Positions 47,276-63,940 of a stretch of DNA of 64,000 bases are shown one piece after another (position 1 is the first letter of the stretch; every line of letters begins with the position of its first letter). Under the pieces are notes generated by a model. It was not told the origin of the DNA and ran no database searches. It was given only the letters and a program-made list of their open reading frames with translations. The DNA is taken from the NCBI RefSeq assembly GCF_026241095.1, contig NZ_JAPFGB010000035.1:1-64000 (forward strand), read 5' to 3'. The stretch is from Saccharopolyspora sp. NFXS83 (lineage in GTDB: Bacteria > Actinomycetota > Actinomycetes > Mycobacteriales > Pseudonocardiaceae). The position numbers and the translations under genes are program-made.

Positions 47276-47475
47276 ACGGACGGGGCGGGAAAACCTTGGG
47301 CAATTACCAGGGGTGCCCCTGATGCACTGGTGGCGGAGAGGCGATGTCCTGTTCCAGGGCCGACGCCGACGATGCTGGTCGAAGCTGACGCCGAGGTAGG
47401 CGTCGTGGCGTGCGCGGTGAGCCCGGCACGCCGCAGCGGTATGCCTGACCAGCGGTGAAGAGAGCGAGAAGGACT

Positions 47476-48714
47476 GTGGAGTTACTGCGGAACGCGGTGC
47501 GCCCCTACGCGTGGGGCTCGCGTACCGCTATCGCGGATCTGCTCGGCCGGCCGGTTCCCACTCCGCACCCCGAGGCCGAGCTGTGGATGGGCGCGCACCC
47601 CGGCGACCCGTCGAAGCTGGTGCGGCCGGACGGGTCCGAGGAGTCGCTGCTGCACCTGCTCGACGCCGACCCGGCGCACCACCTGGGTCCGGTGTGCACC
47701 GGGCGTTGGGGAAGCCGGTTGCCGTTCCTGCTCAAGGTGCTCGCCGCGAACGAGCCGCTGAGCCTGCAGGCGCACCCGTCGGCGGAGCAGGCCGCGGAAG
47801 GTTTCGCGCGGGAGGAACGCGCAGGCATCCCGCGCAACGCGCCGAACCGCAACTACCCGGACCCCACGGCGAAACCGGAGCTGGTCTGCGCGCTCACCGA
47901 GTTCCACGCGCTGGCCGGTTTCCGCGAGGCGCACCGCACGGTGCGGCTGTTGGGGGAGCTGGACGTGCCGAGCCTGCGTCCGCACACCGGGCTGCTGGCG
48001 GCCCAACCGGACGCGGACGGGCTGCGGGCGCTGTTCACCACCTGGATCACGCTGCCGCAGCACTACCTGCGCGACCTGCTGCCGGAGCTGCTGGACGCGT
48101 GCGTGCGGCACGTCCGCGAGCACGGCGAGTTCGCGCTGGAGTGCCGCACCGTGCTGGAGCTGGGGGAGGCCTACCCGAACGACGCGGGCGTGCTGGCGAG
48201 CCTGCTGCTGAACCGGCTGGTGCTGCAGCCGGGCGAGGCGATCTACCTGCCCGCGGGCAACCTGCACGCCTACCTGCAGGGCACCGGGGTGGAGATCCTC
48301 GCGAACTCCGACAACATCCTGCGCTGCGGGCTCACCCCGAAGCACGTGGACGTGCCCGAGCTGCTGCGGGTGCTGGACTTCACCTGCGCCGACATGCGGG
48401 TGCACAAGGGCGAGTCGCTGGACGGGAACCTCACCGTCTACCAGACGCCCGCGGAGGAGTTCCGGCTCTCCAGGGTGGACTGGTCGCCTGCGAACTCGAC
48501 GGCGGTGCGGCTGGATTCGCACGGCCCGCAGATCCTGCTGTGCACCAAGGGCGGCGTGCGGTTGTCCACGGGCGGCCCCGGTGAGCAGCGGGTGGAGCTG
48601 GACGTGGTGAAGGGCCAGTCGGTGTGGCTGGCGGCCTCCGATCCGGCGGTGCTGGCCCACCCGGCGTGCCAGGACGGGACGGCGCAGCTGTTCCGCGCCG
48701 CCGCCGGGGCGTAG
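47476..48714 (+). CDS. manA: Mannose-6-phosphate isomerase, class I
   Basis: Zinc enzyme that converts fructose-6-phosphate to mannose-6-phosphate, the entry to GDP-mannose. The 412-residue cupin-type protein has RPYAWGSRTAIADLLGR, AELWMGAHPGDPS, PFLLKVLAANEPLSLQAHPS (zinc ligands Gln and His), KPELVCALTEFHALAGF and ILANSDNILRCGLTPKHVD. GTG 47476 chosen because the family starts with the VELLRNAVRPYAWGS strand and AGAAGG precedes it; GTG 47455 adds seven basic residues. Confidence 0.94.
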   Translation: MELLRNAVRPYAWGSRTAIADLLGRPVPTPHPEAELWMGAHPGDPSKLVRPDGSEESLLHLLDADPAHHLGPVCTGRWGSRLPFLLKVLAANEPLSLQAHPSAEQAAEGFAREERAGIPRNAPNRNYPDPTAKPELVCALTEFHALAGFREAHRTVRLLGELDVPSLRPHTGLLAAQPDADGLRALFTTWITLPQHYLRDLLPELLDACVRHVREHGEFALECRTVLELGEAYPNDAGVLASLLLNRLVLQPGEAIYLPAGNLHAYLQGTGVEILANSDNILRCGLTPKHVDVPELLRVLDFTCADMRVHKGESLDGNLTVYQTPAEEFRLSRVDWSPANSTAVRLDSHGPQILLCTKGGVRLSTGGPGEQRVELDVVKGQSVWLAASDPAVLAHPACQDGTAQLFRAAAGA

Positions 48715-48853
48715 CCACCGCCCGACGAGCCGCTCGGATCGTGGCGATCGCGCCGCCGGTGGGCCGCGAGTTGTCCGGTATCGACCTGAGTCGGCCGATC
48801 ATGCCGGTACATTCCCCGAGGACTTTTCGACCATCGGACTCGGGAGCGACATC

Positions 48854-49807
48854 GTGTCAGCAGGCGGCGGTACTAAGGCGATCCTGGCGGCTCTGGCCGC
48901 GAACGCGGGCATCGCGGTGGCCAAGTTCGGCGGGTTCCTGTTCACCGGGTCCTCGTCGATGCTCGCGGAGTCCGTGCACTCGGTCGCCGACACCTCCAAC
49001 CAGGGGCTGCTGCTGCTCGGGCAGAAGACCTCGGTGCGCAAAGCCACCGAGGAGCACCCGTTCGGCTACGGGCGGGACCGCTACTTCTACTCGTTCGTCG
49101 TGGCGTTGATGCTGTTCAGCCTGGGGTCGGTGTTCGCGCTCTACGAGGGCATCCACAAGATCCAGCACCCCGAGGAGCTGACCTCGCCGATCGTGGCCGT
49201 GGTGATCCTGGTGGTCGCCATCGCGCTGGAGTCCTACAGCTTCGCCACCGCGATCAAGGAATCCCGCGCGATCAAGGGCGGGCTCGGCTGGTGGCAGTTC
49301 ATCCGCCAGGCCAAGACGCCGGAACTGCCGGTGGTGCTGCTGGAGGACGCGGGTGCGCTGCTGGGCCTGGTGCTCGCGCTCGGCGGCGTCGGGCTGTCCG
49401 TGCTCACCGGTGACCCGGTGTTCGACGGCATCGGCACCGCGTGCATCGGCGTGCTGCTGGGCGTCATCGCGATCGTGCTCATCGTCGAGACGAAGAGCCT
49501 GCTCATCGGCGAGGGCGCGACCCGCTCGGTGCTCGACGACGTCGTGGGCGAGCTGCGTGGCGGCAAGGTGCAGAAGGTCATCCACATCCGGACCCAGTAC
49601 CTCGGCCCGGACGAGCTGCTGATCGCGGCGAAGATCGGACTGGCCCCGTCGATCACCGTCGCCGAGGTGGCCGCGGAGATCGACGACGCGGAGGCCAGGG
49701 TCCGGGCGAAGGTCCCCGCGGCCCGGCTGATCTACCTCGAACCCGACCTTGACCGAGGTGTGGACCCGGCCGCGGAGAACACGTCCGCGGTCTCGGGACA
49801 GGACTGA
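48854..49807 (+). CDS. Cation diffusion facilitator (CDF) family transporter
   Basis: 317-residue divalent cation:proton antiporter in the cytoplasmic membrane. Six hydrophobic segments; the zinc-site residues are SVHSVADTSNQ (TM2; first ligand pair partly substituted: S-x3-D instead of H/D-x3-D) and LLEDAGALLGLVLAL (TM5, with E-D). C-terminal cytoplasmic domain with VQKVIHIRTQYLGPDELLIAAKI is the dimerisation fold. GTG start at 48854. Metal could be zinc, manganese or iron. Confidence 0.88.
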   Translation: MSAGGGTKAILAALAANAGIAVAKFGGFLFTGSSSMLAESVHSVADTSNQGLLLLGQKTSVRKATEEHPFGYGRDRYFYSFVVALMLFSLGSVFALYEGIHKIQHPEELTSPIVAVVILVVAIALESYSFATAIKESRAIKGGLGWWQFIRQAKTPELPVVLLEDAGALLGLVLALGGVGLSVLTGDPVFDGIGTACIGVLLGVIAIVLIVETKSLLIGEGATRSVLDDVVGELRGGKVQKVIHIRTQYLGPDELLIAAKIGLAPSITVAEVAAEIDDAEARVRAKVPAARLIYLEPDLDRGVDPAAENTSAVSGQD

Positions 49808-50086
49808 ATCTTCGGCGATTTATCCGCTCGTGCAGGCTTTCCCGATGATCTGGGGAAAACCGGGAAATTGTCTTGTTGGCGGGCCTCCTACCTGCGGCGA
49901 CGCGCGATATGCGCACGGACAGTGATCGATCCGATGCATTCGGAGGATCACGATGTCCGCCGGGTGGACGGAGCGGTCACAGAGCATTAACGAATTGCTC
50001 CGGCCACACTGTTTTCCAGCGAATCCGGTGCAACACTCCCCCGCTAGGGTGCGTTCCACCATTCGGGTTGGAAGAGGAGGGCGACA

Positions 50087-51601
50087 GTGCCAGGGACCGG
50101 GCTGTGGCGAACAAAGTCGGTCGAGCAATCGATCAAAGATACCGATGAGCCGGACACGAAGCTCCGGAAGAACCTCGGTGCCTGGGACCTGATGGTCTTC
50201 GGCGTCTCGGTCGTCATCGGCGCAGGCATCTTCACGCTCGCCGCCTCCACGGCCGGCGACACGACGGGGCCGTCGGTGTCGTTGTCCTTCGTCATCGCGG
50301 CGATCGCCTGCGGCCTCGCCGCGGTCTGCTACGCGGAGTTCGCCTCGACCGTTCCGGTCGCGGGCAGCGCCTACACCTACTCGTACGCGACCTTCGGCGA
50401 GTTCATCGCCTGGATCATCGGCTGGGACCTGATCCTGGAGTTCGCGGTCGCGGCGGCTGCGGTGAGCAAGGGCTGGTCGAGCTACCTGCAGCAGGTGCTC
50501 GAGCTCGTCGGGATCAGCGGTGTGCCCACGAAGTTCGAACTCGGGCCGCTGCAGTTCGACTGGGGCGCCCTGCTGCTGATCGGCGCGCTGACCACCGTGC
50601 TCGCGGTCGGCACCAAGCTCTCGGCGCGGGTCAGCCTCGTCATCAGCGCCATCAAGGTCTTCGTGGTGCTGCTCGTCGTCGTGGTGGGCCTGTCCTACAT
50701 CAACGCCGACAACTACAAGCCGTTCATCCCGCCGGCCGAGTCCGCTGCGGAGGACGCCTCCAAGCTCGACCAGTCGCTGCTGTCGCTGCTGCTGGGCGGC
50801 GAGACGAGCAGCTTCGGCGTGTTCGGCCTGCTCGCGGGCGCCTCGCTGGTGTTCTTCGCGTTCATCGGCTTCGACGTGGTCGCCACCACCGCCGAAGAGA
50901 CCCGCAACCCGCAGCGCGACGCTCCGCGCGGCATCTTCGGCTCGCTGGCGATCGTCACCGTGCTGTACGTGGCCGTCGCCATCGTGGTGACCGGCATGGT
51001 CAACTACAAGCAGCTGGGCACCACGCCCGACGGTGAGAAGGCCACGCTGGCGACCGCGTTCCAGCTCAACGGCATCAGCTGGGCGGCCGGGGTCATCACG
51101 GTCGGCGCGCTGGCCGGGCTCACGACGGTCGTCATGGTCATGTTCCTCGGCCAGGTGCGCATCCTGTTCGCGATGTCCCGCGACGGCCTGCTGCCGCGCG
51201 GGCTCGCCAAGACGCACAGCGAGAACGGCACCCCGGTGCGCGCGACGCTGATCGTCGGCCTGGTCGTGGCGCTCGCCGCGGCGTTCTTCCCGGCGGACAA
51301 GCTGGAAGAGATGGTCAACGTGGGCACGCTGTTCGCGTTCATCCTGGTCTCCGCCGGTGTGATCATCCTGCGGCGTTCGCGGCCGGACCTGCCGCGCGGG
51401 TTCAAGGCGCCGTTGGTGCCGCTGATCCCGATCCTGGCGATCATCGCCTGCGTGTGGCTGATGCTGAACCTGACCGCGCTGACCTGGGTCCGGTTCATCG
51501 TGTGGATGATCGCGGGTGTGGTGGTGTACTTCCTCTACAGCCGCAAGCACTCCCGCCTCGGCGCGCAGCAGCGCGACGTGGCCTCCGGCGGTTCCGTCTA
51601 A
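50087..51601 (+). CDS. APC family amino acid permease
   Basis: 504-residue permease with 12 hydrophobic segments, of the cationic amino acid transporter type. The substrate-binding TM1 is VFGVSVVIGAGIFTLAAS and TM6 has FFAFIGFDVVATTAEETRNPQRDAPRGI, both hallmark sequences. Two extra C-terminal helices match the 14-segment CAT length only in part. GTG at 50087 follows GAGGAGGGCGACA. Position matches Rv3253c. A strong terminator follows. Confidence 0.92.
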   Translation: MPGTGLWRTKSVEQSIKDTDEPDTKLRKNLGAWDLMVFGVSVVIGAGIFTLAASTAGDTTGPSVSLSFVIAAIACGLAAVCYAEFASTVPVAGSAYTYSYATFGEFIAWIIGWDLILEFAVAAAAVSKGWSSYLQQVLELVGISGVPTKFELGPLQFDWGALLLIGALTTVLAVGTKLSARVSLVISAIKVFVVLLVVVVGLSYINADNYKPFIPPAESAAEDASKLDQSLLSLLLGGETSSFGVFGLLAGASLVFFAFIGFDVVATTAEETRNPQRDAPRGIFGSLAIVTVLYVAVAIVVTGMVNYKQLGTTPDGEKATLATAFQLNGISWAAGVITVGALAGLTTVVMVMFLGQVRILFAMSRDGLLPRGLAKTHSENGTPVRATLIVGLVVALAAAFFPADKLEEMVNVGTLFAFILVSAGVIILRRSRPDLPRGFKAPLVPLIPILAIIACVWLMLNLTALTWVRFIVWMIAGVVVYFLYSRKHSRLGAQQRDVASGGSV

Positions 51602-51612
51602 GCGACCACACC

Positions 51613-51651
51613 AACGGCCCCGCTTCCCCTGCTCGGGGGAGCGGGGCCGTT
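51613..51651 (+). terminator. Terminator after the permease gene
   Basis: AACGGCCCCGCTTCCCC (51613-51629) pairs with 51635-51651, with one wobble and a 5-base loop. It begins 12 bases after the stop codon. Confidence 0.85.
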
Positions 51652-51663
51652 CGCTTTGGGGCG

Positions 51664-51822
51664 GGGTGGCGGAACCTCACCTGTCTGCTCGCCCCGGGAT
51701 CGATTTCGCGAAGGGCTCCGCCGCACGCGCAGTCGCTGTCCTCGCGAGGAGGCGGCTGAACCCGCGGCGGTGGCCGGTTGCTCGCGCGGTCGCTGCTCAG
51801 CGGCTTCGCCGCTGGCAGGCGG
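51664..51822 (+). repeat. Intergenic hairpin element, copy 5
   Basis: Left edge GGTGGCGGAACCTCA; arms at 51676-51692 and 51744-51760 with only partial pairing but the same 51-base loop; then GCTGCTCAGCGGC-TTCG-CCGCTGGC as in copies 3 and 4. It follows the permease terminator, in the gap before the convergent hydrolase gene. The remaining bases to 51931 show nothing else. Confidence 0.75.
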
Positions 51823-51931
51823 ATCGAGGGCCGGGAACTCAGGGGGGAAGGCGCCCGGTGGTGCCGGGGTGACCGGGGCACGTTCGTTCGTGCGGTGGTC
51901 TCGTCGGTCGGGTGGGCGTGTTCCGGAGGTG

Positions 51932-54619
51932 TCAGCGGTCCGCGGCGCGCAGGGCGTTGCCGCGTTCCCACGGGGCGACCCGGCCTCGCGGGTCGGTGAT
52001 CTCCGGTAGCGCCGAGCGGGACGGGGGGTCTTCGTCGGCTGCTCGGGCGGCGGTGGAGGCCGCGGCCTCGTCCGACTCGGCGGCCTCGTCCGGATCCCAG
52101 CCCAGCAGGTCCGTCACGGTCGCGTCCTCGCCCGGTGCCGGGTCGTCCGCCGGCGCCACGCACCCGGTGGACGCGGCGGCGCCGCGGCGGGCCTCGTCGG
52201 CCTCGCTCGCTCGGTGCGGCTCGCTCAGCGCGCCGAGCGGGTCGGCGGCCTGCGCCACCGCCGTCGCCGCGGGCGTGCGCAGCGGCAACGTGGCTCCCCG
52301 GACCGGGATCTCCAATCCGGCGGCCATCGCGACCGCCCGGTCCCACTCCGGGTCCCCGCTGTAGTCCGAATGCCCCAGCACGCCCGGAACCCAGCGGCGG
52401 AACGAGAACGGTCCGCGCTGCGGATCGGGCAGCCAGTGATCGCCACCTAGCACCAGCGCGCCCGTCGGGCCCCGCGTCGCGGGCGGCAGCGGGCCGTGCG
52501 AACCGTCCGGGCGCAGCCCGACGCCGATCAGCATCCCGTCGAAGACCTGCCGGTTCCACGTGGTCACCGCGCCACCGAGCGGGTCGGTGCCGCGGCACAA
52601 CGACCGCCACCGCCCGCTGAGCGACCCGGCCAGATCGCGCAGCGACTCGTGCGGCACCACTCCGGGGAACGCCCGCGGATAGGCCCACTGCAACTGGGAA
52701 CCCGCGGTGACCAGCCCGACCCGTTCCCGGTCGGCCTCCGGCAGCGACTCCAGCAGCCGCGCCGTGGCGACCGCGGCCAGCAGGCTGCCCTGGCTGTGCC
52801 CGACCAGCACCACTCGGGTGTCCGGCTCCGCCAAGTGCTCGGCGGCGCGGGCCGCCAGTTCCGGGACGACCTTCAGCGCGTAGCACGGCGGCACCACCGG
52901 GTGCGCCTCGCGCGGCCAGAACAACGTGAGGTCGCACAGGATCCCCAGGTAGCGCCCGGCGGTGCGCTCCTTCGCGGCCAGCTGCACCATCCGCAGCAGC
53001 CCCGCCGCGAGCAGGCCCAGGGCCAGCACGCCCAGCGTGCGCAGCCAGTCCGCCCACTCGGTGCGCGGGAAGTTCCACGCCCGCAGGCCCAGCGCCAACA
53101 CGGTGCTGGCGGTGAGCACCGCCGCGACCAGCAGCAGCACGTGGTGCGAGTAGCGGCGCTGCACGTCGGCCATCCGCCAGGACCCGGCCGCGTTGCGCTG
53201 GTCCTGCTGCCTGCCCGCGTGCAGCAGCGCGACCTGAGCGGGCACGTCGTCGGTGCCGTGCGGGAACCAGCGCCTGATCAGCATCCAGCAGCCCAGACCG
53301 GCTCCGCCCACGGCCAGCAGCACGGCGGCGCTGCCCCAGAACAACGCCACGTCGTCGTAAGCGGCGGGCAGCCGCAGGAACTCCGGAGCGCCCAGCGCCT
53401 GGCGCAGGGTCAGCGCGAGGCCCGCGCCGAACCCGGCGCCCAGCATGCACGCCAACATCAGCACCGGTGCCGCCATCCAGCCGCCCGCCCACGGGCGCAG
53501 ATCGCGGGGCACCGAGGACCAGCCGGGACGCGCCAGCAGCGCCGCCGGCACCAGCAGCACCGCCATGCCCACGCAGGTCAGCAGCAGGCCGACGGTGATC
53601 ACGTCCACCGTCGAGCCGGAACCGGGCAGCGGACCGTTCAGCGATCCCGGCAGGATCGCCACCGAGAACAGCAGCACCCCCGCGGCGGCCACGACGCTCC
53701 GGCGCGCGGTGCGGCTCAGCAGCCCGCGCACCACCGCGGCGACCGGGCCCGAACCCATGCCGCTCGGGTCGTCGAGCAGCAGCGTGCCGCCGAGCGAGAC
53801 CACCAGCAGCAGCTCGGCGAACAGCCAGCGCGGATCCGCGCTCGGCGTCAGCGGCCCGCCCAGCGCCAGCACCGAGATCACCGCCAGCGCCCCGACGACG
53901 TGCAGCGCGCGCAGCGCGGGGGTGTCCGGATCGGCGACGACGTTGGCGCCCGGCAGCACCGCGGCCCGCGCCGAGTGCCGGGAGTTGTCGCCGCGTCCCC
54001 CGAACGACTTCCACGCCCCGGACACCTTCCAGGACACGCTGGAGAGCCGGTGCATCAGCAAGACGATCAGACCGAGCAGCAGCATCGCGGGCACCGCTCG
54101 TACCGAGGGAACGGCGCGCAGCGACTCCGGCACGTAGGTCAGGCATTGCGCTCCGGGCCGCAGGCACTGCGCCGCGAGCAGATCCAGCAGCACCACCGCG
54201 AGCTGCGCGACGAACAGCATGGTCAGCAGCAGCGCGCTCACCCGCAGCAGCGCGCGCAGCACGTGCGACAGCGCCCCGCCGACGGCGCTTCCGGGCTTGG
54301 GCGGGGGCAGCATCCAGTGCGCGACGTTGCTCAGCGCGAACGGGAACATCAGCGCCCAGCTGGCCTTCGCCCAGCCGCCGGAGGTCATCCCGCCCCAGAC
54401 GTAGCCTTCGACGATCCGGGGCACCGTGCGGTCGCCGGCGGTGAGCATCGGACCGGGCACCGGGCGGCGCAGCCGATCCGCGGGCCGGACGATGCGCCCC
54501 ACCCCGTCACCCGCGACGTCGACCGAGGCCACCGAGTCGGTCAGCGCATCCCCGGTGGTCCCGAGGATGCCGTGCACCCGCAGCTCGACCACGCGGGTGT
54601 CGGGCCCCGGTATCTGCAC
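51932..54619 (-). CDS. Alpha/beta hydrolase interrupted by a ~10-helix membrane domain
   Basis: 895-residue protein. Residues 10-20 form a hydrolase strand with the oxyanion-type dipeptide His16-Gly17 (ELRVHGILG). About ten membrane helices follow (from ~120 to 545). The hydrolase continues with VVLVGHSQGSLLA, nucleophile Ser609, and candidate triad partners Asp679 (RGTDPLGG) and His750 (LGHSDY). The last ~110 residues are acidic and disordered. Likely a membrane-embedded esterase or lipase; substrate unknown. GTG at 54619 has AGGAGG six bases upstream. It follows the cyclase-like gene on the same strand but with two terminators between. Confidence 0.75.
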   Translation of the reverse strand: MQIPGPDTRVVELRVHGILGTTGDALTDSVASVDVAGDGVGRIVRPADRLRRPVPGPMLTAGDRTVPRIVEGYVWGGMTSGGWAKASWALMFPFALSNVAHWMLPPPKPGSAVGGALSHVLRALLRVSALLLTMLFVAQLAVVLLDLLAAQCLRPGAQCLTYVPESLRAVPSVRAVPAMLLLGLIVLLMHRLSSVSWKVSGAWKSFGGRGDNSRHSARAAVLPGANVVADPDTPALRALHVVGALAVISVLALGGPLTPSADPRWLFAELLLVVSLGGTLLLDDPSGMGSGPVAAVVRGLLSRTARRSVVAAAGVLLFSVAILPGSLNGPLPGSGSTVDVITVGLLLTCVGMAVLLVPAALLARPGWSSVPRDLRPWAGGWMAAPVLMLACMLGAGFGAGLALTLRQALGAPEFLRLPAAYDDVALFWGSAAVLLAVGGAGLGCWMLIRRWFPHGTDDVPAQVALLHAGRQQDQRNAAGSWRMADVQRRYSHHVLLLVAAVLTASTVLALGLRAWNFPRTEWADWLRTLGVLALGLLAAGLLRMVQLAAKERTAGRYLGILCDLTLFWPREAHPVVPPCYALKVVPELAARAAEHLAEPDTRVVLVGHSQGSLLAAVATARLLESLPEADRERVGLVTAGSQLQWAYPRAFPGVVPHESLRDLAGSLSGRWRSLCRGTDPLGGAVTTWNRQVFDGMLIGVGLRPDGSHGPLPPATRGPTGALVLGGDHWLPDPQRGPFSFRRWVPGVLGHSDYSGDPEWDRAVAMAAGLEIPVRGATLPLRTPAATAVAQAADPLGALSEPHRASEADEARRGAAASTGCVAPADDPAPGEDATVTDLLGWDPDEAAESDEAAASTAARAADEDPPSRSALPEITDPRGRVAPWERGNALRAADR

Positions 54620-54901
54620 TTGTGCCTCCTGGCCATCGGATCGGTGATGATCACTTGGCAGTGATTGTCCACCGCAGATCGACTCGTGGCGAGCCCTCCG
54701 ACACCCGATTGTGACGGCCCTCGCCCCTGCCTGTCCCCGGTTCGCCAGGAGTGGCGCGGAGATCCAGGTCAGGGGCGTGCACCGCGCGTCGCGCGGGTCC
54801 GGGCGGCAGCACCGTCCGGGTGATCCCAGGCGTGTCGCGGCCGGTACCGGCCGCGGGGCGGCCGGGTTCGCCTACCCCCAGGAAGGCGAACGTGGGCCGC
54901 C
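54620..54901 (-). other. Intergenic stretch upstream of the hydrolase gene
   Basis: With the twin terminators (54902-54965) this is the 369-base gap between the cyclase-like gene and the hydrolase gene. It should contain the hydrolase promoter; I see no gene in it. Confidence 0.45.
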
Positions 54902-54965
54902 GGTCCGAGGAACCGTCCCCTCCGCGGTTCCTCGGACCCGGCCCTGCGCCCCGTCGCGCAGGGCC
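54902..54965 (-). terminator. Twin hairpin terminators after the cyclase-like gene
   Basis: GGTCCGAGGAACCG (54902-54915) pairs perfectly with 54925-54938, and GGCCCTGCGC (54940-54949) with GCGCAGGGCC (54956-54965). They begin 24 bases after the stop codon on the minus strand. Confidence 0.8.
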
Positions 54966-54988
54966 GCGCGCCGCTCCCGCACGTTCGC

Positions 54989-55825
54989 TCAGTTCTGCCC
55001 GTTGAAGCCGATGTCCCGCGCCTGTCCGACCTGGAGCACGGAACCGCCGGTGGAGCCGGAGAACTCGTTGTGCACCGTGTTGTTCACCGTGTTGGTGATC
55101 GGCTGCGGCGGATGTGCCTGTTCCGGTGCGCCCTGCTGGTCCTTCTGGAGCTGCGCGGCGTCGACCGGTGCGGCGTCGACCCCGTCGAGCGAGTCCGGGT
55201 TCACCGAGGCGGTGGGCGTGTAGAGGTAGCCGACGTCTTCGTAGCTCTTGACCTTGACGGCGCGTTCGGCGAAGCGGGCCGGGCGGAGTTTCACGTAGGC
55301 GCCGCGGATGACGTCGGTGAACACCCGCTGCGACAGGATCGCGGCGAGGAAGGTCGAGTCCGGGTCGGATTCCTCGAGGATCTTGCGGACGGGTGCGGAG
55401 TCGAGCAGGCGGTGGGTCTCGTTCATCGCGGTGGACAGTCCGCTGTCGGGGATGGGGCCGAGGTGGATGCTGGCGCGCAGCCGCAGGCGCAGGGCGCGGT
55501 CGCGGGCGCGCACGACCTCGTCGTGGTCTTGGAGCACCTCGTCGAGTTCGGTGAGGAACGGGTCGACGAGGAAGGGCACGTCGGTGGCGTCGACGCCGAA
55601 GTAGTAGCCGTCGCCGGTGGAGGTGCCGAACACCCGGTTCTCCCACAGGCGCGACAGCCCGGCCTGGTCGAGGGCCTGCGCCAGCAGGTCCGGGATGTCC
55701 CGGCTGAGCTGTTGCTGGTGCGCGCTGGGGCTGTTGCTGAAGTCCTTGGTGTCCACGGCGAACACCGCGCGGTACGGCGGCAGCTGCTTGGTGCGTCGCA
55801 CGTGGGGGCTGGTACCGGTCGACAT
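54989..55825 (-). CDS. Class III cyclase-fold protein with C-terminal amyloid-like motif
   Basis: 278-residue protein. Residues 18-205 match the class III nucleotidyl cyclase fold: VFAVDTKDFS with metal Asp25, GTSTGDGYYFGVD with Asp72, LRASIHLGPI, and N-x3-R (Asn135, Arg139) where the transition-state pair lies, so it may be active. Base specificity cannot be read. After a Gln/Pro linker the end (253-278) has NEFSGSTGGSVLQVGQARDI, resembling the RHIM-like bacterial amyloid signalling motif (G-x-V-x-Q-x-G core). ATG 55825 is preceded by CAGGAAGGAAA. Lies between a Crp-like regulator and a membrane hydrolase. Confidence 0.72.
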   Translation of the reverse strand: MSTGTSPHVRRTKQLPPYRAVFAVDTKDFSNSPSAHQQQLSRDIPDLLAQALDQAGLSRLWENRVFGTSTGDGYYFGVDATDVPFLVDPFLTELDEVLQDHDEVVRARDRALRLRLRASIHLGPIPDSGLSTAMNETHRLLDSAPVRKILEESDPDSTFLAAILSQRVFTDVIRGAYVKLRPARFAERAVKVKSYEDVGYLYTPTASVNPDSLDGVDAAPVDAAQLQKDQQGAPEQAHPPQPITNTVNNTVHNEFSGSTGGSVLQVGQARDIGFNGQN

Positions 55826-55911
55826 GGTGTTTCCTTCCTGCCTCGGCCGAGCGCTGCGCCGGATCGGCGCCGCCCGGCTCGTCGAGATCCAGCATCGAGC
55901 GGGTGTGCTGG

Positions 55912-55937
55912 GGGGGTGTCCGATTTCGGACACCCCC
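55912..55937 (-). terminator. Hairpin after the Crp-like gene
   Basis: GGGGGTGTCCGA (55912-55923) pairs perfectly with TCGGACACCCCC (55926-55937), 15 bases past the regulator stop codon on the minus strand. It separates this gene from the cyclase-like gene. Confidence 0.75.
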
Positions 55938-55951
55938 GACTATGAAGTGGA

Positions 55952-56647
55952 TCACACGTGGTCAGGTGGGCTGATCTCGGCCCGCAACGCGTCGATCTTG
56001 AGCACCTGCACTCCCTGCGGCTCGGTGCGCAGCAACCCCAGGGCGCGGAAGTCGGACAGGCTCGCCGCCACCGACGTCCGCGACATCCCCAGCAGATCGG
56101 CCAGTTCGCGCTGGGACAGCTGCACGAACCAGTCCACCTCGTCGGCCGCGGCGAGCCGGCACAGCAGCCACGCCACCTTCGACTTCACCGACAACCCGGC
56201 CAGCTCGGCGACCATGGTGCTGTTGGACCGCAACTTCGCGCTCACGTAGCGGGTGAGCTGCCGTTCGAGCCTGCGGCGGCGGATGAAGGCGGCGAACTCG
56301 GTGCCGCGCAGCAGCTGCACCGCGCACTTCGACAGGGCGTAGGCGCTGGCCGACCGGGGCTGCTGGTCCAGATCCGCCTGCTCGCCGATCACGTCGCCCG
56401 CCCAGCGCACCGCGAGCAGCGCCCGTCCCTGATCGAGCCGCGCGCCGACGATCTGGCAGGCGCCGGACAGCAGCACGAGCACGTGATCGCCGTCGTCGCC
56501 CTCCTTGAGCAGCACGTCGCCCGGTTCGTACCGGACCGGAGCGCCGACGCGCAGCAGGTCGCGCCACTCGTCCGCGGCGAGGTGATCGCGGAACGTGCGG
56601 TAGCCGTCGAGCGGGGTGGGCGCCACGGGTGTCGAGTTTTGCCGCAT
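55952..56647 (-). CDS. Crp/Fnr family regulator with cyclic-nucleotide-binding domain
   Basis: 231-residue regulator. The N-terminal beta-barrel has PVRYEPGDVLLKEGDDGDHVLVLLSG, ALLAVRWAGDVIGEQADLDQ and PRSASAYAL, where the GE-x-(6)-R-S/A phosphate cassette of cNMP sites is recognisable (Gly-Glu then Arg-Ser-Ala). The C-terminal winged helix contains LSQRELADLLGMSRTSVAAS. It may sense the product of the adjacent cyclase-like protein. I chose ATG 56647; a TTG at 56683 in frame is less likely. Divergent from tmk. Confidence 0.88.
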   Translation of the reverse strand: MRQNSTPVAPTPLDGYRTFRDHLAADEWRDLLRVGAPVRYEPGDVLLKEGDDGDHVLVLLSGACQIVGARLDQGRALLAVRWAGDVIGEQADLDQQPRSASAYALSKCAVQLLRGTEFAAFIRRRRLERQLTRYVSAKLRSNSTMVAELAGLSVKSKVAWLLCRLAAADEVDWFVQLSQRELADLLGMSRTSVAASLSDFRALGLLRTEPQGVQVLKIDALRAEISPPDHV

Positions 56648-56727
56648 CGCACCCGGATGTGAACCGTTTTCGCGCCACGTCAACCCTATCGGCGGTCTGC
56701 GCGCGGTCGCTGCGTATCGTCCTCGGC

Positions 56728-57366
56728 GTGGGGCGGCTGATCGTGATCGAAGGACTGGACGGCGCGGGCAAGCGCACGCTCGCCGCAGGGCTCACCGAGC
56801 GGCTTCGCCAGGGCGGCAGCACCGTCGCGCACGCCGCGTTCCCGCGGTATTCCGCGGACGTGCACGCCGAACTCGTCGCCGAAGCGCTGCACGGCGGCCA
56901 CGGCGACCTCGGCGAGTCCGTGCACGGCATGGCCGTGCTCTACGCGCTGGACCGGCGGGACGCGGCCGAGGAGCTGCGCGCGGACCTCGCCGCGCACGAC
57001 GTGGTGCTGCTGGACCGCTACGTCGCCTCCAACGCCGCCTACGGCGCCGCCCGGCTGCACCAGGACGCCGACGGGGAGTTCGTGCGGTGGGTGCGGGAAC
57101 TCGAGGTCGAGAGGTTCGCCGTGCCGCGGCCCGATCTGCAGCTGCTGCTGCGGGTCCCGGCCGACGTGGCGGCCTCCCGCGCCGAGCACCGGGAGCGCAC
57201 CGAGACCCGGCGCCGCGACAACTTCGAATCCGACTCCTCGCTGCAGCGGCGCTGCGGCGCGGTGTACGCGCAGCTCGCCGAGATCGGCTGGTGGTCGCCG
57301 TGGCGGGTGATCGACGGCGCCGAGCGCCTGGACTACGCCGAGCTGGCGGCCGAGATCACCGGCTGA
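56728..57366 (+). CDS. tmk: dTMP kinase
   Basis: Phosphorylates dTMP to dTDP for DNA synthesis. The 212-residue P-loop kinase has LIVIEGLDGAGKRTLAAGL, LDRYVASNAAYGAARL (DRY) and the lid region RTETRRRDNFESD. GTG at 56728 chosen from the family N-terminus; the TATCGT at 56715-56720 is well placed as a -10 box for a leaderless message. Corresponds to Rv3247c, upstream of mtrA, with no sahH between purine and kinase genes here. Confidence 0.93.
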   Translation: MGRLIVIEGLDGAGKRTLAAGLTERLRQGGSTVAHAAFPRYSADVHAELVAEALHGGHGDLGESVHGMAVLYALDRRDAAEELRADLAAHDVVLLDRYVASNAAYGAARLHQDADGEFVRWVRELEVERFAVPRPDLQLLLRVPADVAASRAEHRERTETRRRDNFESDSSLQRRCGAVYAQLAEIGWWSPWRVIDGAERLDYAELAAEITG

Positions 57367-57532
57367 AGCGCCCGGACGCCCTCGGTGATCGCGGGCGGTG
57401 CGCGCGCCGCGGCTGGTCCACGCCTTGAGTACCCCGTTCGGCGGTACAAGTCCCTCCGCGTTCGGTGCAGGCATGACGACCTGCGGTGACGATCGGCGGG
57501 TGCTGTCCGGCCCAGGAGTGAGAAGTGCAACC

Positions 57533-58219
57533 ATGTGGGGCATGAAGGCGCGCGTGCTCGTGGTGGACGACGATCCGGCCCTGGCCGAAATGCTGACCAT
57601 CGTCCTGCGGGGCGAAGGGTTCGAAACCGCTGTGGTCAGCGACGGAACCAAGGCGATGCCCGCACTGCGCGAACTGAAACCCGACGTGGTGCTGCTCGAC
57701 CTCATGCTGCCCGGCATGAACGGCATCGACGTGTGCAAGGCGATCCGCACCGAGTCCGTGGTGCCGATCGTGATGCTCACCGCCAAGAGCGACACCGTCG
57801 ACGTGGTGCTCGGCCTCGAATCCGGCGCCGACGACTACGTCGTCAAACCCTTCAAGCCGAAGGAACTCGTCGCCCGCCTGCGCGCCCGTCTGCGCCGCAC
57901 CGACGCCGAACCCGCCGAGGTGCTCGCCATCGGCGACCTCAGCATCGACGTCCCCGGCCACGAGGTGACCCGCGAGGGCGTGCCGATAGCGCTCACCCCG
58001 CTGGAGTTCGACCTGCTGGTCGCGCTGGCCCGCAAGCCGCGCCAGGTGTTCACCCGCGAAGTCCTGCTGGAGCAGGTCTGGGGCTACCGGCACGCCGCCG
58101 ACACCCGGCTGGTCAACGTCCACGTGCAGCGGCTGCGGTCCAAGGTGGAGCGCGACCCGGAACGCCCCGAGGTGGTGCTGACGGTCCGCGGTGTCGGGTA
58201 CAAGGCGGGCCCGCCGTGA
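57533..58219 (+). CDS. mtrA: Response regulator MtrA
   Basis: OmpR-type response regulator controlling DNA replication, division and cell-wall hydrolases. The 228-residue protein has the receiver domain with VVDDDP, phospho-acceptor Asp56 in VVLLDLMLPGMNG, conserved Thr and Lys (MLTAKSD, YVVKPFKPKE), and a winged helix (PLEFDLLVALARKPRQVFTR, WGYRHAADTRLVNVHVQRLR). ATG at 57533 gives exactly the known M. tuberculosis length and has a GAGAAG ribosome site; ATG 57542 is an alternative. Confidence 0.96.
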   Translation: MWGMKARVLVVDDDPALAEMLTIVLRGEGFETAVVSDGTKAMPALRELKPDVVLLDLMLPGMNGIDVCKAIRTESVVPIVMLTAKSDTVDVVLGLESGADDYVVKPFKPKELVARLRARLRRTDAEPAEVLAIGDLSIDVPGHEVTREGVPIALTPLEFDLLVALARKPRQVFTREVLLEQVWGYRHAADTRLVNVHVQRLRSKVERDPERPEVVLTVRGVGYKAGPP

Positions 58220-58238
58220 TCCCTCGGCTCAGGTCGCG

Positions 58239-60104
58239 TTGAGCGGGTGGGCGAGCCGGGGCAGGGTGCTGCGCCGGTGGGGGACGCGCGCCCGCGATGA
58301 GCTCAGGGAACGCTGGCAGCGCTTCGAACGCGTGTGGCGGCGCTCCATGCAGTTGCGCGTGGTGGTCAGCACGCTCGCGCTGTCCTCGGTGGTCATCTGC
58401 GTGCTGGGCATGGTGCTGCAGACGCAGATCACCTACCAGCTGATGACCGCGAAGGAACGCGCCGCGATCATGCAGGTGCAGTCGAGCCTGCCGGTGCTGG
58501 AGCGGGAGCTGACCGCCGTCGACCCGAACTCCGACGACGTCTCCCAGCAGCTCGAACAGGCCCTCAACCGCCTCACCACGCCCAATTCGAGCGGTTCCAC
58601 GCAGCAACCGGCCGCGGGCGCCTTCGAACCCGTGCTGGTGGACGGCGCGGGCGCCGGGTCCGAGCCGCATCCCTTCGCCGGCCCCCTGCGCGACGTGCCG
58701 GACGGACTGCGCAGGTTCGTCGAACAAGGCCAGCTGGCGAAGCAGATCACCACGGTGCCGCGCGGGACTGAACCGGTCACGATGCTGGTCGTCGGCACCC
58801 CCGTCGACAGCTCCACCCGCTCGCTGCAGGCGTACCTGCTGTTCCCGCTGACCTCGGAGAAGAGCACGCTCGGCTTCGTGCAGAGCACGCTGCTGGTCGG
58901 CGGGCTGGTGCTGGTGGTCCTGCTCGGCGCCATCACGAACCTCGTCACCCGCCAGGTGGTGCGCCCCGTGCGGCAGGCCGCGCAGAACGCCGCGCGCCTC
59001 GCCGACGGCGACCTGGACCAGCGGATGCGGGTCATCGGCGAGGACGACGTGGCCCGGCTGGCCGAGTCGTTCAACGAGATGGCCGACAGCCTCAAGCAGC
59101 AGATCAAGCAGCTGGAGGAGTTCGGCCAGCTGCAACGCCGCTTCACCTCCGACGTATCGCACGAGCTGCGCACCCCGCTGACCACGGTCCGGATGGCCGC
59201 CGACGTGCTGCACGCCTCCCGCGAGCAGTTCCCGCCCGGCTTGGCCCGCTCCACCGAGCTGCTCGTCGACGAACTGGACAGGTTCGAGGCGCTGCTGGCG
59301 GACCTGCTGGAGATCTCCCGGCTCGACGCGGGCGTCGCCGAACTCGCCGCCGAACCGCTGGACCTGCCCGCGATCGTGCAGCGCGCCGTGGACTCGGTGC
59401 GCGGCATCGCCGAGACCAGCAAGGTCCCGCTGCGCGTCGAGGTGGCGGGCGACGACCTCGACCTGGTCGGCGACGCCCGCCGCGTCGAACGCATCGTGCG
59501 CAACCTGATCGCCAACGCCATCGACCACGCCGAAGGCGGGCCGGTGGAGATCAGGTTCGGCGCCGACGACCGCGCCGTCGCCGTCAGCGTCCGCGACTAC
59601 GGCGTCGGGCTCCGCCCGGGCGAAGCGGAACTGGTGTTCACCCGGTTCTGGCGCGCCGACCCGTCCCGCAACCGCCGCACCGGCGGCACCGGACTCGGCC
59701 TGTCGATCAGCTCCGAGGACGCGCGGCTGCACGGCGGGCTGCTCGACGCGTGGGGCGAACCGGGCTCGGGATCGTGCTTCCGGCTGACGTTGCCGCGCAC
59801 GCCCGGGCAGGACTTCACCGACAGCCCGCTGGCGCTGCCCGTCGGACGGCGCATCGCCGCCCCGGGAGCGCTGCTGGCCCGCACCCTCGACGCGCAGGCC
59901 GAAGGCGAGCGGGAGGGCGCGGTCCGGGACACCGGCCCCGCACGGCTCTCCGAACCCTCCCCGCACGACTCCGCCGGGCTCGACCAGGAACGGCCGGAGC
60001 ACCCGCCGAGCGAGGACCAGGCGAGGGTCGATCAGACGAAGGCCGACCACGCCAGGACCGGTCGCGCCATCCCCGTCGAACGAGGCTGGGAGGACCTGCG
60101 ATGA
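58239..60104 (+). CDS. mtrB: Sensor histidine kinase MtrB
   Basis: Membrane kinase for MtrA. A basic N-terminus, first membrane segment (VVVSTLALSSVVICVLGMVL), an extracytoplasmic sensor of ~130 residues, a second membrane segment, HAMP, then the phospho-acceptor helix RRFTSDVSHELRTPLTTVRM and ATPase motifs NLIANAIDHA, DYGVGLRPGE, GGTGLGLSI. The C-terminal tail is Glu/Asp/Arg-rich. The start is undecided: TTG 58239 is given; GTG 58191 (inside mtrA) and GTG 58266 are in frame. The stop overlaps lpqB as ATGA. Confidence 0.93.
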   Translation: MSGWASRGRVLRRWGTRARDELRERWQRFERVWRRSMQLRVVVSTLALSSVVICVLGMVLQTQITYQLMTAKERAAIMQVQSSLPVLERELTAVDPNSDDVSQQLEQALNRLTTPNSSGSTQQPAAGAFEPVLVDGAGAGSEPHPFAGPLRDVPDGLRRFVEQGQLAKQITTVPRGTEPVTMLVVGTPVDSSTRSLQAYLLFPLTSEKSTLGFVQSTLLVGGLVLVVLLGAITNLVTRQVVRPVRQAAQNAARLADGDLDQRMRVIGEDDVARLAESFNEMADSLKQQIKQLEEFGQLQRRFTSDVSHELRTPLTTVRMAADVLHASREQFPPGLARSTELLVDELDRFEALLADLLEISRLDAGVAELAAEPLDLPAIVQRAVDSVRGIAETSKVPLRVEVAGDDLDLVGDARRVERIVRNLIANAIDHAEGGPVEIRFGADDRAVAVSVRDYGVGLRPGEAELVFTRFWRADPSRNRRTGGTGLGLSISSEDARLHGGLLDAWGEPGSGSCFRLTLPRTPGQDFTDSPLALPVGRRIAAPGALLARTLDAQAEGEREGAVRDTGPARLSEPSPHDSAGLDQERPEHPPSEDQARVDQTKADHARTGRAIPVERGWEDLR

Positions 60105-61816
60105 CGCGTCGCCGGCTGGCCGTGCTGGTGTTGGCCCTGCTCCCGCTGGGCGCCTGCGCCTCCATCCCGGAGCGGTCCGATCCGATGGCGGTGCAGCCCG
60201 TCGTGGAGGGCAACGCGCCCGGAGCCACGATGCCGGAACCGCCGCGCGGCGTGAACTCCTTCGACCTCGTGCGCAGCTTCGCCGACACCGGCTCCACCCC
60301 GGAGAGCGGTTTCGCGGCGGCCAAGGAGTACCTGACCGACGACGCCGAGCGGCGGTGGGAACCGGACAACTCGGTGCTCATCGTCGACAACATCGACACC
60401 ATCCCGGTGCCGCCGCCGCCGAACCAGCCGGAGAACGTGCAGCTCGTCAGCCTGCAGGCGGACCGGGTCGGGCGGCTGCGGCCGGACGCCTCGTTCGTCC
60501 CCGAGACCGGCCCCTACGAGGTGCAGGTCCGGGTGGAGCGGAACCGGGAAGGGCAGTGGCGGATCGCCTCGCCGCCCGAGGACATGGTGATCAGCAGGGC
60601 CTCCTTCAAGGACGGCTTCATGGCGGTGCCGATCTACTTCGCGGACCACGACGGCGGGGGTGTGGTGCCCGATCTGCGCTGGGTCGGATCCCAGCCCGAG
60701 GTCACGCTGCCGCAGCGCGTGATCGAACTGCTCATCGCGGGCCCCTCCGAGGGCTTCAAGGACGCGATGGCCAGCCAGCTCCCGCGTGGGGCCAGCACGA
60801 AGACCAACGTCAGCGAGGACGATGACGGCGCGCTGGTGGTCAACCTCAGCGGCCTCGGCGAACCCGACCTCGAATCGCGGCAGATGCTCGCCGCGCAGGT
60901 CGTGCTGTCGCTGCAGAACGTCAGCAAGGCCCGGGTCCGGTTGCAGGAGGAAGGCGTCGCGCTGCTGCCCGGCAAGCGGGACCTGCAGCCGGCGGACGTC
61001 GAGTCCTACGAGAGCGACAACGCGGTGAGCCCCGGTCTGCCCGGTCTCGCCGTGATCGGGGAACGGCTGCACGTGCTCGACGAGAACGTCCGCCCCATCC
61101 CCGGACCCGCCGGATCCGGCGCGCTGGAAGTGGTGCAGGCCGCCCAGTCCGGAGACGGTTCGCGGCTCGCCGCAGTGGCCCGCAAACCCTCCGGGATGGT
61201 GGGGCTGCGGGTCGGCCCGTACGGCGAGGACATGTCCGAGCTGCAGCCCACCGGCAGCTTCATGAGCAGGCCCACCTGGCGGGGCGACTCCGAGGTGTGG
61301 GCGGTCGTCAACGGCCGCGACGTGTTCCGCGCGGTCGACGAAGGCGGGTCGTGGGGCGTCCGGCCGGTCGATGTGGGCGAGTTCTCCGGAGGCAGGCAGC
61401 TCACCCAGCTGCGCCTGTCGCACGACGGCACCCGCGCGGCGGGCGTGGTCGACGGGCGCATCGTCGTCGGGGCGGTCGTGGACGAGGACGGGCGCGTCGC
61501 GCTGCGGCACCCGGTGACGCTGGGCGCGGACCGGGATTTCCGCGTGACGGGCGTGGACTGGCTCACGGACAAGTCCCTGGTGGCGGCCACCGACGGTTCC
61601 TCACCGGTCATGGAGGTCACCGTGGACGGCTTCGACTGGACCGAGTACGCCTCGGCGAACCTGACGCAGCCGATCAACGCCGTGACCGTCGGGCCGGGCA
61701 AGCGCGTCGTCGTGGCCGACCAGCGCTGGCTCTGGGAGGCGACCGCCTCGAACGCGGTGTGGAGCGTGCTGCCGGGCGAGATCGAGGGGAACTCGCTCCC
61801 GTTCTTCCCCGGCTGA
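60101..61816 (+). CDS. lpqB: Lipoprotein LpqB, MtrB partner
   Basis: Secreted lipoprotein that interacts with the MtrB sensor domain and influences MtrA phosphorylation. The 571-residue protein has a lipobox LPLGAC with lipidated Cys19, a GerMN-type domain (around residues 190-330, FADHDGGGVVPDLRW, LPQRVIELLIAGPS) and a C-terminal propeller-like domain ending NSLPFFPG. ATG at 60101 overlaps the mtrB stop, giving the usual mtrA-mtrB-lpqB operon. Confidence 0.95.
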   Translation: MTRRRLAVLVLALLPLGACASIPERSDPMAVQPVVEGNAPGATMPEPPRGVNSFDLVRSFADTGSTPESGFAAAKEYLTDDAERRWEPDNSVLIVDNIDTIPVPPPPNQPENVQLVSLQADRVGRLRPDASFVPETGPYEVQVRVERNREGQWRIASPPEDMVISRASFKDGFMAVPIYFADHDGGGVVPDLRWVGSQPEVTLPQRVIELLIAGPSEGFKDAMASQLPRGASTKTNVSEDDDGALVVNLSGLGEPDLESRQMLAAQVVLSLQNVSKARVRLQEEGVALLPGKRDLQPADVESYESDNAVSPGLPGLAVIGERLHVLDENVRPIPGPAGSGALEVVQAAQSGDGSRLAAVARKPSGMVGLRVGPYGEDMSELQPTGSFMSRPTWRGDSEVWAVVNGRDVFRAVDEGGSWGVRPVDVGEFSGGRQLTQLRLSHDGTRAAGVVDGRIVVGAVVDEDGRVALRHPVTLGADRDFRVTGVDWLTDKSLVAATDGSSPVMEVTVDGFDWTEYASANLTQPINAVTVGPGKRVVVADQRWLWEATASNAVWSVLPGEIEGNSLPFFPG

Positions 61817-61886
61817 TCCGGGTTCGCCGCACGCGGTCCGACGCGCCGCGGTGAGTCGGACGGCGACATCGCGCACCCTGCACGGC

Positions 61887-62702
61887 ATGAGCGGATCTCG
61901 GGAAGGGGCCGGCGAGCCCGTCGCCGCGCGGGCGCCCGGTCGGTGGCGCCGAACCGGTGACGGGCTCGCCGCCGCCGCGTCCGGGCTGATCGACCTGATG
62001 CTGCCGCTGCGCTGCGCGGGCTGCGCCCGACCTGGAACCGCGTGGTGCGGCGGGTGCGCCCGGGAACTCGGCGGGCTGCGCAAAGTGGTCCGCGCGCTGC
62101 CGGTGCCGTCGGGCTCGGCCGCCGTGCCGCCCGTGTTCGCCCTGGGCCGATATCGCGGTGCGGCGCGGCGAGCCGTCGTCTCCTACAAGGCGGCCGGCCG
62201 CCGGGACCTCGCCGATCCGTTCGGCGTCGCGATCGCGGACGGCTTGGCGGGGCTTCTCCAATGGGGCCCGAGCTCCTCCGGAAGGGCGGCGTTCGGGGCG
62301 GAGACCGTGCCTGACCTCGACCCGGCCGGGACGTGGCACTTGGTGCCCGCTCCGTCGAGGGCGATCACCTCGCGGCGGCGCGGCGGGGCGCACATGACGC
62401 GGGTCGCGGGTCGCGCCGCGGCCGTGCTCGCGGAGCGCGGCCGGGCCGCAGTGGTCGCCGACTGCCTGGTGTCCGGAGCCGGTGCTCGCGACTCGGTGGG
62501 GCTCGACCCGGCGGAACGGCTGCGCAACCTGGCCGGGCGGGTGTCGGTGCTGCCGCGGCGGGCGCCGCCGGCCGGCGCGCCGGTGCTGCTGATCGACGAC
62601 GTGCTCACCACCGGCGCCACCGCCATGAGCTCGGCGCACGTCCTGGCGCGGCACGGCGTGCCGGTCACCGCGGTGCTGGTGCTGACCGCGACCTCGGGTT
62701 GA
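61887..62702 (+). CDS. comF: ComF family phosphoribosyltransferase-like protein
   Basis: 271-residue protein with a zinc knuckle (RCAGCARPGTAWCGGCAREL, residues ~50-70) and a phosphoribosyltransferase fold ending in VLLIDDVLTTGATAMSSAHV, the PRPP loop. ComF proteins are linked to DNA uptake or recombination in Gram-negatives; the role in actinobacteria is unclear. ATG at 61887 is given because the family start is variable; GTG 61851 is also possible. Rv3242c is the positional counterpart, next to hpf. Confidence 0.88.
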   Translation: MSGSREGAGEPVAARAPGRWRRTGDGLAAAASGLIDLMLPLRCAGCARPGTAWCGGCARELGGLRKVVRALPVPSGSAAVPPVFALGRYRGAARRAVVSYKAAGRRDLADPFGVAIADGLAGLLQWGPSSSGRAAFGAETVPDLDPAGTWHLVPAPSRAITSRRRGGAHMTRVAGRAAAVLAERGRAAVVADCLVSGAGARDSVGLDPAERLRNLAGRVSVLPRRAPPAGAPVLLIDDVLTTGATAMSSAHVLARHGVPVTAVLVLTATSG

Positions 62703-63090
62703 CACGATCGTGCGTTGTCCGGCGGCCCGACATCTGAGGAACTCAGCACCGCCCTTCGTTCGTTCAGGGGGTATGAGCAGTCGACGGCACTCGCGCCCGG
62801 GCGCTCCGACCTGCGGGGGAGCTCCAGGCGCCCGCAGGGAGCCCCAAATTGGGCGGTGTCGCTCAGTGACCGCAACTCGATCACATTTAGCCCGAAAGAG
62901 TGAGGCGAGTGGTGTGGGACACGCCGTGGAAACCCCCGTCGCGAGCCTCGCGCGTCGCCCGCTCAGCCCTGTACATCACGCTCAGTGGCGGCTTGACGTC
63001 GCCCATCTCGGGGGCTGTTTCCCGTTGGCGAAGTTAGCTAACGTGCCTGCATTCAGTCGTACCCGCGCTTTGGGAAGGAGTGAGGAACCC

Positions 63091-63117
63091 ATGTCCCTGG
63101 CGCCGGAAGCGAACTGA
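63091..63117 (+). CDS. Putative leader peptide upstream of hpf
   Basis: Eight-codon frame MSLAPEAN with a strong ribosome site (GGAAGGAGTGAGG ending 4 bases before the ATG). It ends 69 bases before hpf. A hairpin overlaps its second half, so translation could control folding of the leader RNA. No function known; could be chance. Confidence 0.4.
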   Translation: MSLAPEAN

Positions 63118-63139
63118 GATCGGTCGCGGTTCCGGCGCC
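63099..63139 (+). promoter_or_regulatory. Attenuator-like hairpin in the hpf leader
   Basis: GGCGCCGGAA (63099-63108) pairs perfectly with TTCCGGCGCC (63130-63139) across 21 bases. The first arm lies inside the eight-codon leader frame, so a ribosome on it would block the stem. Confidence 0.5.
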
Positions 63140-63186
63140 GCCGTGCGGACACGTCACGGGATGTACGCAAGGAACGGAGGTCGTGA

Positions 63187-63888: not shown

Positions 63889-63940
63889 CCGGACGATCAA
63901 CCGGGCGTCCGGCGAGTCTGCGCCAGCGCCCGACCCCACC

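Follow-up and report, generated by a model that had tools for sequence, protein, structure and literature searches.

A class III nucleotide cyclase with a RHIM-like tail beside a Crp-type regulator in Saccharopolyspora: a candidate receptor-triggered second-messenger relay

Introduction

The sharing of amyloid-type motifs between receptors and effectors has already been described in Actinobacteria, where bacterial amyloid signalling (BASS) systems employ BELL, CHAT and TIR effectors (PMC7889193); this and the other papers cited here by PMC number are referred to for the parts of them that were covered. In a different line of work, it has been predicted that EADs or death-like domains couple cyclases to inactive STAND proteins (Kaur et al. 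2021, PMC8195603), and a CRP-like factor recognising cyclic nucleotide monophosphates (cNMP) was linked to some AP-ATPase peptide-processing systems (Kaur et al. 2020, PMC7159879). What is available on bacterial amyloid signalosomes so far is sequence and a few peptides. Here we describe a gene from Saccharopolyspora sp. NFXS83, located in a stretch of 64,000 nucleotides (the window) of one contig (NZ_JAPFGB010000035.1) of a 6.9 Mb genome. It encodes a class III nucleotide cyclase with a RHIM-like C-terminal motif and lies on the minus strand, which corrects the plain coordinates of a preliminary description made from the DNA letters; that description had also overlooked the Crp-type partner of the cyclase and its likely operator. 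We propose, with a probability of roughly 0.68, that the cyclase makes the signal, as the effector, in a second-messenger relay triggered by receptors.

Results

The cyclase fold assigned in the preliminary description was borne out by profile matches, fold matches and the catalytic residues. The protein has the class III fold, together with the two metal-binding aspartates and the catalytic arginine and lysine of this class, and the four residues previously named as its signature (D25, D72, N135, R139) are all present, the third of them not being family-wide (see Discussion). The best sequence match among solved structures is the mycobacterial adenylyl cyclase Ma1120, at a weak E of 0.0011 over 95 profile positions, and scans of the cyclase with Pfam, NCBIfam and PADLOC returned nothing useful. 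The protein probably makes a cyclic-nucleotide signal. Of the 394 genomes sampled from the class of the window, 67 contain the cyclase family (E up to 1e-20); two relatives were found in named genomes, both Saccharopolyspora.

The RHIM-like motif proposed for the C-terminus also stood up to profile searches, which, in answer to the doubt raised when it was proposed, do find relatives. A tail profile of 28 positions, built from 17 cyclase tails only, that of the window among them, retrieved the window cyclase from the whole genome at E 1e-9, and a hidden Markov model (HMM) of five receptor motifs of the same genome, with zero cyclases in it, gave the window tail an E of 4.7e-5 among the cyclases scanned. 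In the window, the tail profile matched no other open reading frame (ORF), the next being at E 1.5, and it matched nothing in the reversed window at E up to 5, in agreement with the earlier remark that no partner bearing the motif lies there. A chance likeness of the tail was rejected by the tail-profile, receptor-motif HMM and window/reversed-window scans. The core of the tail resembles RHIM/BASS3, and the triplet ARD has been reported for BASS2 in the part of the literature covered. Searching the DNA with a short pattern that encodes the core of the motif was uninformative (116 matches, 199 in the backward control). Three family cyclases were found in the genome at E up to 1, and all of them are motif-bearing (receptor-motif HMM at E 3.5e-6 and 6.8e-5 for the other two); a second profile, built with all three included, recovers all three. 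RHIM-tailed cyclases were also seen at L041, L044, L047, L048, L050, L051, L053, L056 and L063, where Crp is absent upstream on the same strand; the tails of this group read IQVG or VQVG, followed by HG.

The genome search for a second motif-bearing protein, which the preliminary description had advised, led to five NB-ARC/NACHT receptors. At E under 0.1 the tail profile marked eight places, namely the window cyclase and a second cyclase (the tails of both being in the profile), a protein of 142 aa in which a hydrophobic stretch is visible by eye, and five ORFs of 700-797 aa, all outside the window, with the motif near the N-terminus and an NTPase domain after it. By Pfam, four of these receptors have NB-ARC and TPR repeats, one of the four falling under the NB-ARC cut-off, and one has NACHT; PADLOC matched two receptors through TPR, and one of these also, weakly, to mad8. 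Weaker motif matches in the genome included a 378-aa ORF (E 0.0024) and two further STAND-like ORFs (E 0.11 and 0.28). When motif ORFs were fetched from five congeners and three other chosen genomes, a Walker A followed the motif in 14 of 16, and the other two were small proteins. Finally, 56 genomes were sorted according to their best cyclase (RHIM-tailed in 18, with another tail in 20, no cyclase match in 18), and all 18 RHIM-tailed genomes had motif matches at E up to 0.1, at least four in each, that of the cyclase itself included.

Two side observations concern the motif-bearing proteins. A small protein with an N-terminal RHIM-like motif and, by eye, a hydrophobic stretch occurs in three genus-group genomes (L119:8531-8959, L228, L235). 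Moreover, the NB-ARC/TPR receptor at L118:7383-9473 is near AfsR (NF053617, E 1.4e-118, under the cut-off). The N-terminus of AfsR is a DNA-binding domain, and in the L118 receptor the RHIM-like motif occupies its place.

To place the cyclase in its gene context, 40 distinct family loci with a cyclase match were compared, the window included and duplicates merged. The usual gene order in related genomes is Crp, cyclase, STAND and a gene named c18, with Crp directly upstream of the cyclase in 31/40 loci. A STAND-like protein is encoded by the next gene in 22/40 family loci and in 17/20 loci of other families, though not in the window. It matched nSTAND3 in nine of ten proteins scanned (E up to 0.5, best 9.7e-7), three STAND proteins scanned singly stayed below the nSTAND3 cut-off, and its Walker A reads GSGR where GK would stand. 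For c18, no clear family emerged.

The likeness between cyclase tail and STAND N-terminus was measured in a cis test, in which each cyclase tail was aligned to STAND residues 1-75 of its own and of other loci, with 100,000 permutations. The first set comprised the 19 loci in which the STAND call was intact, the tail being what follows a core motif; L046, L055 and L061, in which the STAND call is truncated, and L004, which is the same place as L040, were omitted. The mean score was 83.7 with the own STAND and 38.0 with those of others, and none of the 100,000 permutations was as high; with the last 100 residues as tail the values were 83.7 and 38.3 (0/100,000). The own partner ranked first in 12 loci and second in 5, the exceptions being L071 (rank 6) and L049 (rank 17), the latter having a RHIM tail and a STAND in which the motif was not seen. 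Control alignments to STAND residues 76-150 gave no signal (24.7 vs 24.3). A second, non-overlapping set of 20 other-family loci yielded 17 pairs and, with the last 100 residues as tail, scores of 57.6 with the own STAND and 36.7 with others' (0/100,000), its control with the cyclase N-terminus being flat (83,813/100,000). Since we take cyclase and STAND to be unrelated families, the resemblance between their ends is in itself a result, and the sharing of one motif by cyclase tail and STAND N-terminus is, as judged from these alignments, a general rule. The motif itself may be of another kind, as in the pairs of L040 (AEKHDGDNNFNFGS with AEHHGDNNYTYNYTYGS) and L062 (GIYQPLVFGDI with SVHRPLVFGDI). 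This qualifies the earlier expectation that tails of homologues should be conserved, in that non-RHIM tails do exist, but mostly with another motif matched to the neighbouring STAND.

Tail type and STAND presence were then counted in 42 family cyclases, with L038 dropped and the tail-less tandem copies of L052 and L054 entered as other tails with STAND. Among RHIM-like tails a cis STAND was absent in 16 cases and present in 2, whereas among other tails it was present in 22 and absent in 2 (Fisher p 1.2e-7, kinship ignored). We rejected this test as proof of a link between tail and STAND, because the tail type requires 3 changes on a tree built from 41 cyclase cores, with only 3 independent pairs to compare. 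The tree does not include L038, L073 or the other-family loci; L005 and L038 are the same place, and L039 is nearly identical. One of the changes falls inside the clade of the window, at L040 (the S. indica place, as L004), where STAND and c18 lie between the cyclase and an 895-aa gene and the tail differs from that of the window.

Gene-order variants were noted in some of these loci. At L052:6910-9086 and L054:6981-9274 a shorter second cyclase, called at 195-200 aa and tail-less, stands ahead of Crp and the tailed cyclase, of which it may be a partner subunit. In L045, L046 and L049 a c18-like gene and a methyltransferase-like gene, presumably of the FkbM type (by eye), precede Crp.

In the window, the gene directly upstream of the cyclase, on the same strand and after a gap of 126 nt, encodes a regulator of Crp/Fnr type, in which the domains cNMP_binding (E 3.5e-15) and HTH_Crp_2 (E 5.4e-13) were recognised. 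The cyclic-nucleotide cassette of Crp is intact, Gly, Glu and Arg being found in 31/31 sequences with letters there, so that both the cNMP domain with its cassette and the Crp helix-turn-helix expected of this family are in place. The gap between the two genes holds a perfect inverted repeat. The pattern TGTCC[GA]N4[CT]GGACA, defined after seeing this site, was searched in 1,053,901 bases of 61 sequences and gave 20 sites in total, 19 of which fall within the 49 gaps between Crp and cyclase genes (6,080 bases, margins of 40 and 20 nt included). The remaining site lies ~240 nt upstream of the start called for L072, the second cyclase of the window's genome, and 80-95 nt before the L072 cyclase match, with a Crp match just upstream there too. 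Among 30 permutations of the half-site the real one had the most sites (20), followed by TCGTC with 15, the rest having 3 or fewer. We conclude that the palindrome is likely the operator of the adjacent Crp. With the 20-mer and up to 3 mismatches, the genome contained the window site (0 mismatches) and one other (3), at G000:C3:176598-176617, and the backward control gave 0; given this near-absence of further sites, the regulator looks local rather than global. No operator site was found in the seven loci L118-L124, five of which are receptor loci.

The features of the locus are collected in Table 1. The next gene after the cyclase encodes an 895-aa protein (HYD) with a GHSQG stretch, which comes after the cyclase operon in the window and in the nearest relatives (after c18 in L004/L040); its membership in the system is doubtful. 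As a motif-bearing partner it was rejected, no other ORF of the window having a motif match better than E 0.68.

Table 1. Coordinates of the cyclase locus in the window.
Feature	Position	Strand	Evidence
895-aa protein (HYD), next gene; Lipase_3 E 6e-4, under cut-off	51932..54619	-	weak lipase/hydrolase match
14-bp perfect hairpin just 3' of the cyclase gene, possible terminator	54902..54938	-	
Class III nucleotide cyclase, 278 aa, RHIM-like tail at the C-terminus	54989..55825	-	profile, fold matches, catalytic residues
Linker and tail, residues 232-278	54992..55132	-	pLDDT under 50 in low-confidence monomer model
RHIM-like (bacterial amyloid signalling type) motif NEFSGSTGGSVLQVGQARDI, residues 253-272	55010..55069	-	profile matches
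Lys193, aligned with Lys in the canonical VKGKG stretch	55247..55249	-	41/41 relatives
Arg139, transition-state arginine	55409..55411	-	41/41 relatives
Asn135, transition-state Asn	55421..55423	-	present here; in 7/41 relatives
Asp72, second metal-binding residue	55610..55612	-	41/41 relatives
Asp25, first metal-binding residue	55751..55753	-	40/40 rows with a letter
Perfect inverted repeat, 12-nt arms, 2 nt between; proposed Crp operator	55912..55937	.	Crp-cyclase gap
Crp/Fnr-type regulator, cNMP_binding + HTH_Crp_2 (ORF open to 56683)	55952..56647	-	domain matches

Discussion

The relay that we propose would start with a STAND/NLR NTPase, which would sense a stimulus and oligomerise, so bringing its N-terminal RHIM-like motifs into line. 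These, matching as they do the motif of the cyclase tail, could template that tail into an amyloid-type assembly. Class III cyclases act as dimers, and crowding on the assembly would therefore be expected to switch the enzyme on. The cyclic nucleotide would then bind the adjacent regulator through its intact cassette, and the regulator would act, as an activator rather than a repressor in our model, at the conserved palindrome before the cyclase gene, in which case the relay would control its own operon. In the genome of the window, the receptors encoded elsewhere could feed the three RHIM-tailed cyclases.

Several observations weigh against this reading. As for the regulator, 9/40 family loci have no Crp upstream on the same strand, and the palindrome, a post hoc pattern, is missing from 30/49 gaps. 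As for the pairing, in the second set the own STAND ranked first in only 8/17 pairs and within the first three in 10/17, the misses including L207, L211, L214, L216 and L220, and the control with STAND residues 76-150 was mildly positive there (1,621/100,000); in L211, L216 and L220 the STAND start was called too late, a motif-like stretch being present in frame ahead of it. On the tree, an average of 2.7 of the 3 independent pairs go in the expected direction, with a p of 0.25, significance being unreachable with this number. Motif matches (E up to 0.1) also occur in 14/20 genomes with another tail, at least one of which (G029) has a second cyclase with a motif match, and in 8/18 genomes without a cyclase match; the receptors must therefore have additional partners and are not tied to these cyclases alone. 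Finally, the structural support is low, since the monomer model, made from 3 sequences, has a mean pLDDT of 54.5 and a pTM of 0.49, and the query-normalised Foldseek TM-scores were 0.41 or less.

A wider version of the proposed relay is tentative, and we would put it at somewhat less than even odds. It would be a network of cyclic-nucleotide signalling gated by amyloid, in which many receptors share one public RHIM-like tag and address few cyclases (three in the genome of the window) that hand the alarm on to gene expression through a dedicated Crp, while sister operons use private tag pairs. The private, co-varying pairs would amount to insulated channels, and an exchange of tags would thus rewire the system between a shared bus and private lines.

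What the relay serves is a separate question, and the defence role suggested in the preliminary description was not supported. That the relay is real, but works in development or secondary metabolism instead of anti-phage defence, falls only slightly short of an even chance in our estimate. The locus is a stable chromosomal site, with the same flanking genes (which we take to be tmk-mtrA-mtrB-lpqB) in the window as in its nearest relatives, the partner on the output side is a transcription factor, one receptor has the AfsR-family match reported above, and PADLOC had no match for the window cyclase or for the cyclase, STAND and c18 of L074. On the other hand, diverse receptor-effector motif pairs and STAND receptors typify conflict systems (PMC7159879).

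The shared motif could also be a homotypic adaptor of a non-amyloid kind, such as a short beta-strand or solenoid patch holding a defined, fibre-free STAND-cyclase complex. Many non-RHIM tails are long, glycine-rich and diverse, and in EAD systems adaptors of other folds do the same job (PMC7159879). We consider this unlikely, as the RHIM-like core (LQVG/VQVG/VQAG) lies at the N-terminus of receptors and the C-terminus of effectors as in BASS (PMC7889193), and two peptides, one of BASS3 and one BASS3-like from archaea, aggregated and bound Congo Red (PMC8086366).

Even less probable is a catalytically dead cyclase domain, serving as a nucleotide-binding or scaffold part. The column of Asn135 does count for it and against the proposed relay, since 41 relatives show Asn in 7 and V or I in 33; moreover, Pfam Guanylate_cyc matched 0/41 cyclases at E up to 0.5, and inactive cNMP cyclases have been reported in ternary conflict systems (PMC7159879). 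Against it, in no row with a letter is either metal-binding Asp, Arg139 or Lys193 replaced, the window copy has the Asn as well, and the usual neighbour is a Crp with an intact cNMP cassette.

That the system is a relic in this genome, its STAND and c18 genes gone and its tail functionless, is the least probable alternative. The STAND homologues of the genome are indeed only fragments (G000:C23:81002-81511, one match with an internal stop) and no STAND or c18 remnants were found at E under 0.79 in window positions 45001-64000, but the motif is kept in the window and in the five congeners fetched from its clade, all of which lack a STAND nearby, every family cyclase of the genome carries it, and the operator of the window is a perfect palindrome.

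Comparison with Known Systems

The effectors of Pycsar are of the TIR or membrane type, and the comparison with this system made in the preliminary description did not hold. Membership was rejected, as the cyclase has no PADLOC match at E up to 1 and the genome contains 0 PycC at 1e-10. The Crp does match the PADLOC PycTIR (1.4e-12) and PycC models, the matches being centred on the cNMP domain; however, the cNMP-gated toxic effector next door is absent, and the partner is a DNA-binding Crp (cNMP_binding + HTH_Crp_2). The window cyclase differs also from Ma1120, for which no tail, receptor or Crp link was seen in the searches made.

The systems based on EADs and iSTAND2 are closer, since there a STAND-type core and an effector share an adaptor, often in adjacent genes, and cNMP cyclases are among the effectors (PMC7159879, PMC8195603). 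The adaptors, however, belong mostly to the helical EADs or the death-like domains, and the ternary systems have MoxR-vWA cores (same sources), whereas here we find a short RHIM-like or other motif, a usual Crp partner and a conserved palindrome. In the main text of PMC7159879 the words 'amyloid' and 'RHIM' do not occur, and in PMC8195603 'amyloid' occurs once, in a reference.

The closest likeness in the motif is to BASS, in which a RHIM-like class of motif is placed at the receptor N-terminus and the effector C-terminus, in filamentous Actinobacteria (PMC7889193, PMC8086366); the same short motif at the C-terminus of the effector and at the N-terminus of the NLR was found in the present case. 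Receptor and effector genes are neighbours in BASS; among the loci compared here this holds for 22/40 of the family and 17/20 of other families, and not for the window. The effectors named for BASS are BELL, CHAT and TIR, while here the effector is a class III cyclase with a Crp regulator; the main texts of PMC7889193, PMC8086366, PMC12261475 and PMC9815663 do not contain the word 'cyclase', and no cyclase effector with an amyloid motif was found among the matches listed, which covered titles and the starts of abstracts, subscription journals being mostly outside coverage.

If our reading is true, prion-like innate signalling and cyclic-nucleotide signalling would be united in one operon, forming a bacterial alarm relay that leads from receptor clumping through a chemical message to gene expression. 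As its output would consist of a small molecule that can be measured and of a defined promoter, the path from the receptor tag to transcription would be testable in soil bacteria. The sharing of amyloid motifs by receptor and effector is known already from BASS, and cyclases on helical adaptors are known as predictions; in the literature covered, no cyclase that carries an amyloid-type tag and is linked to a Crp of its own was seen.
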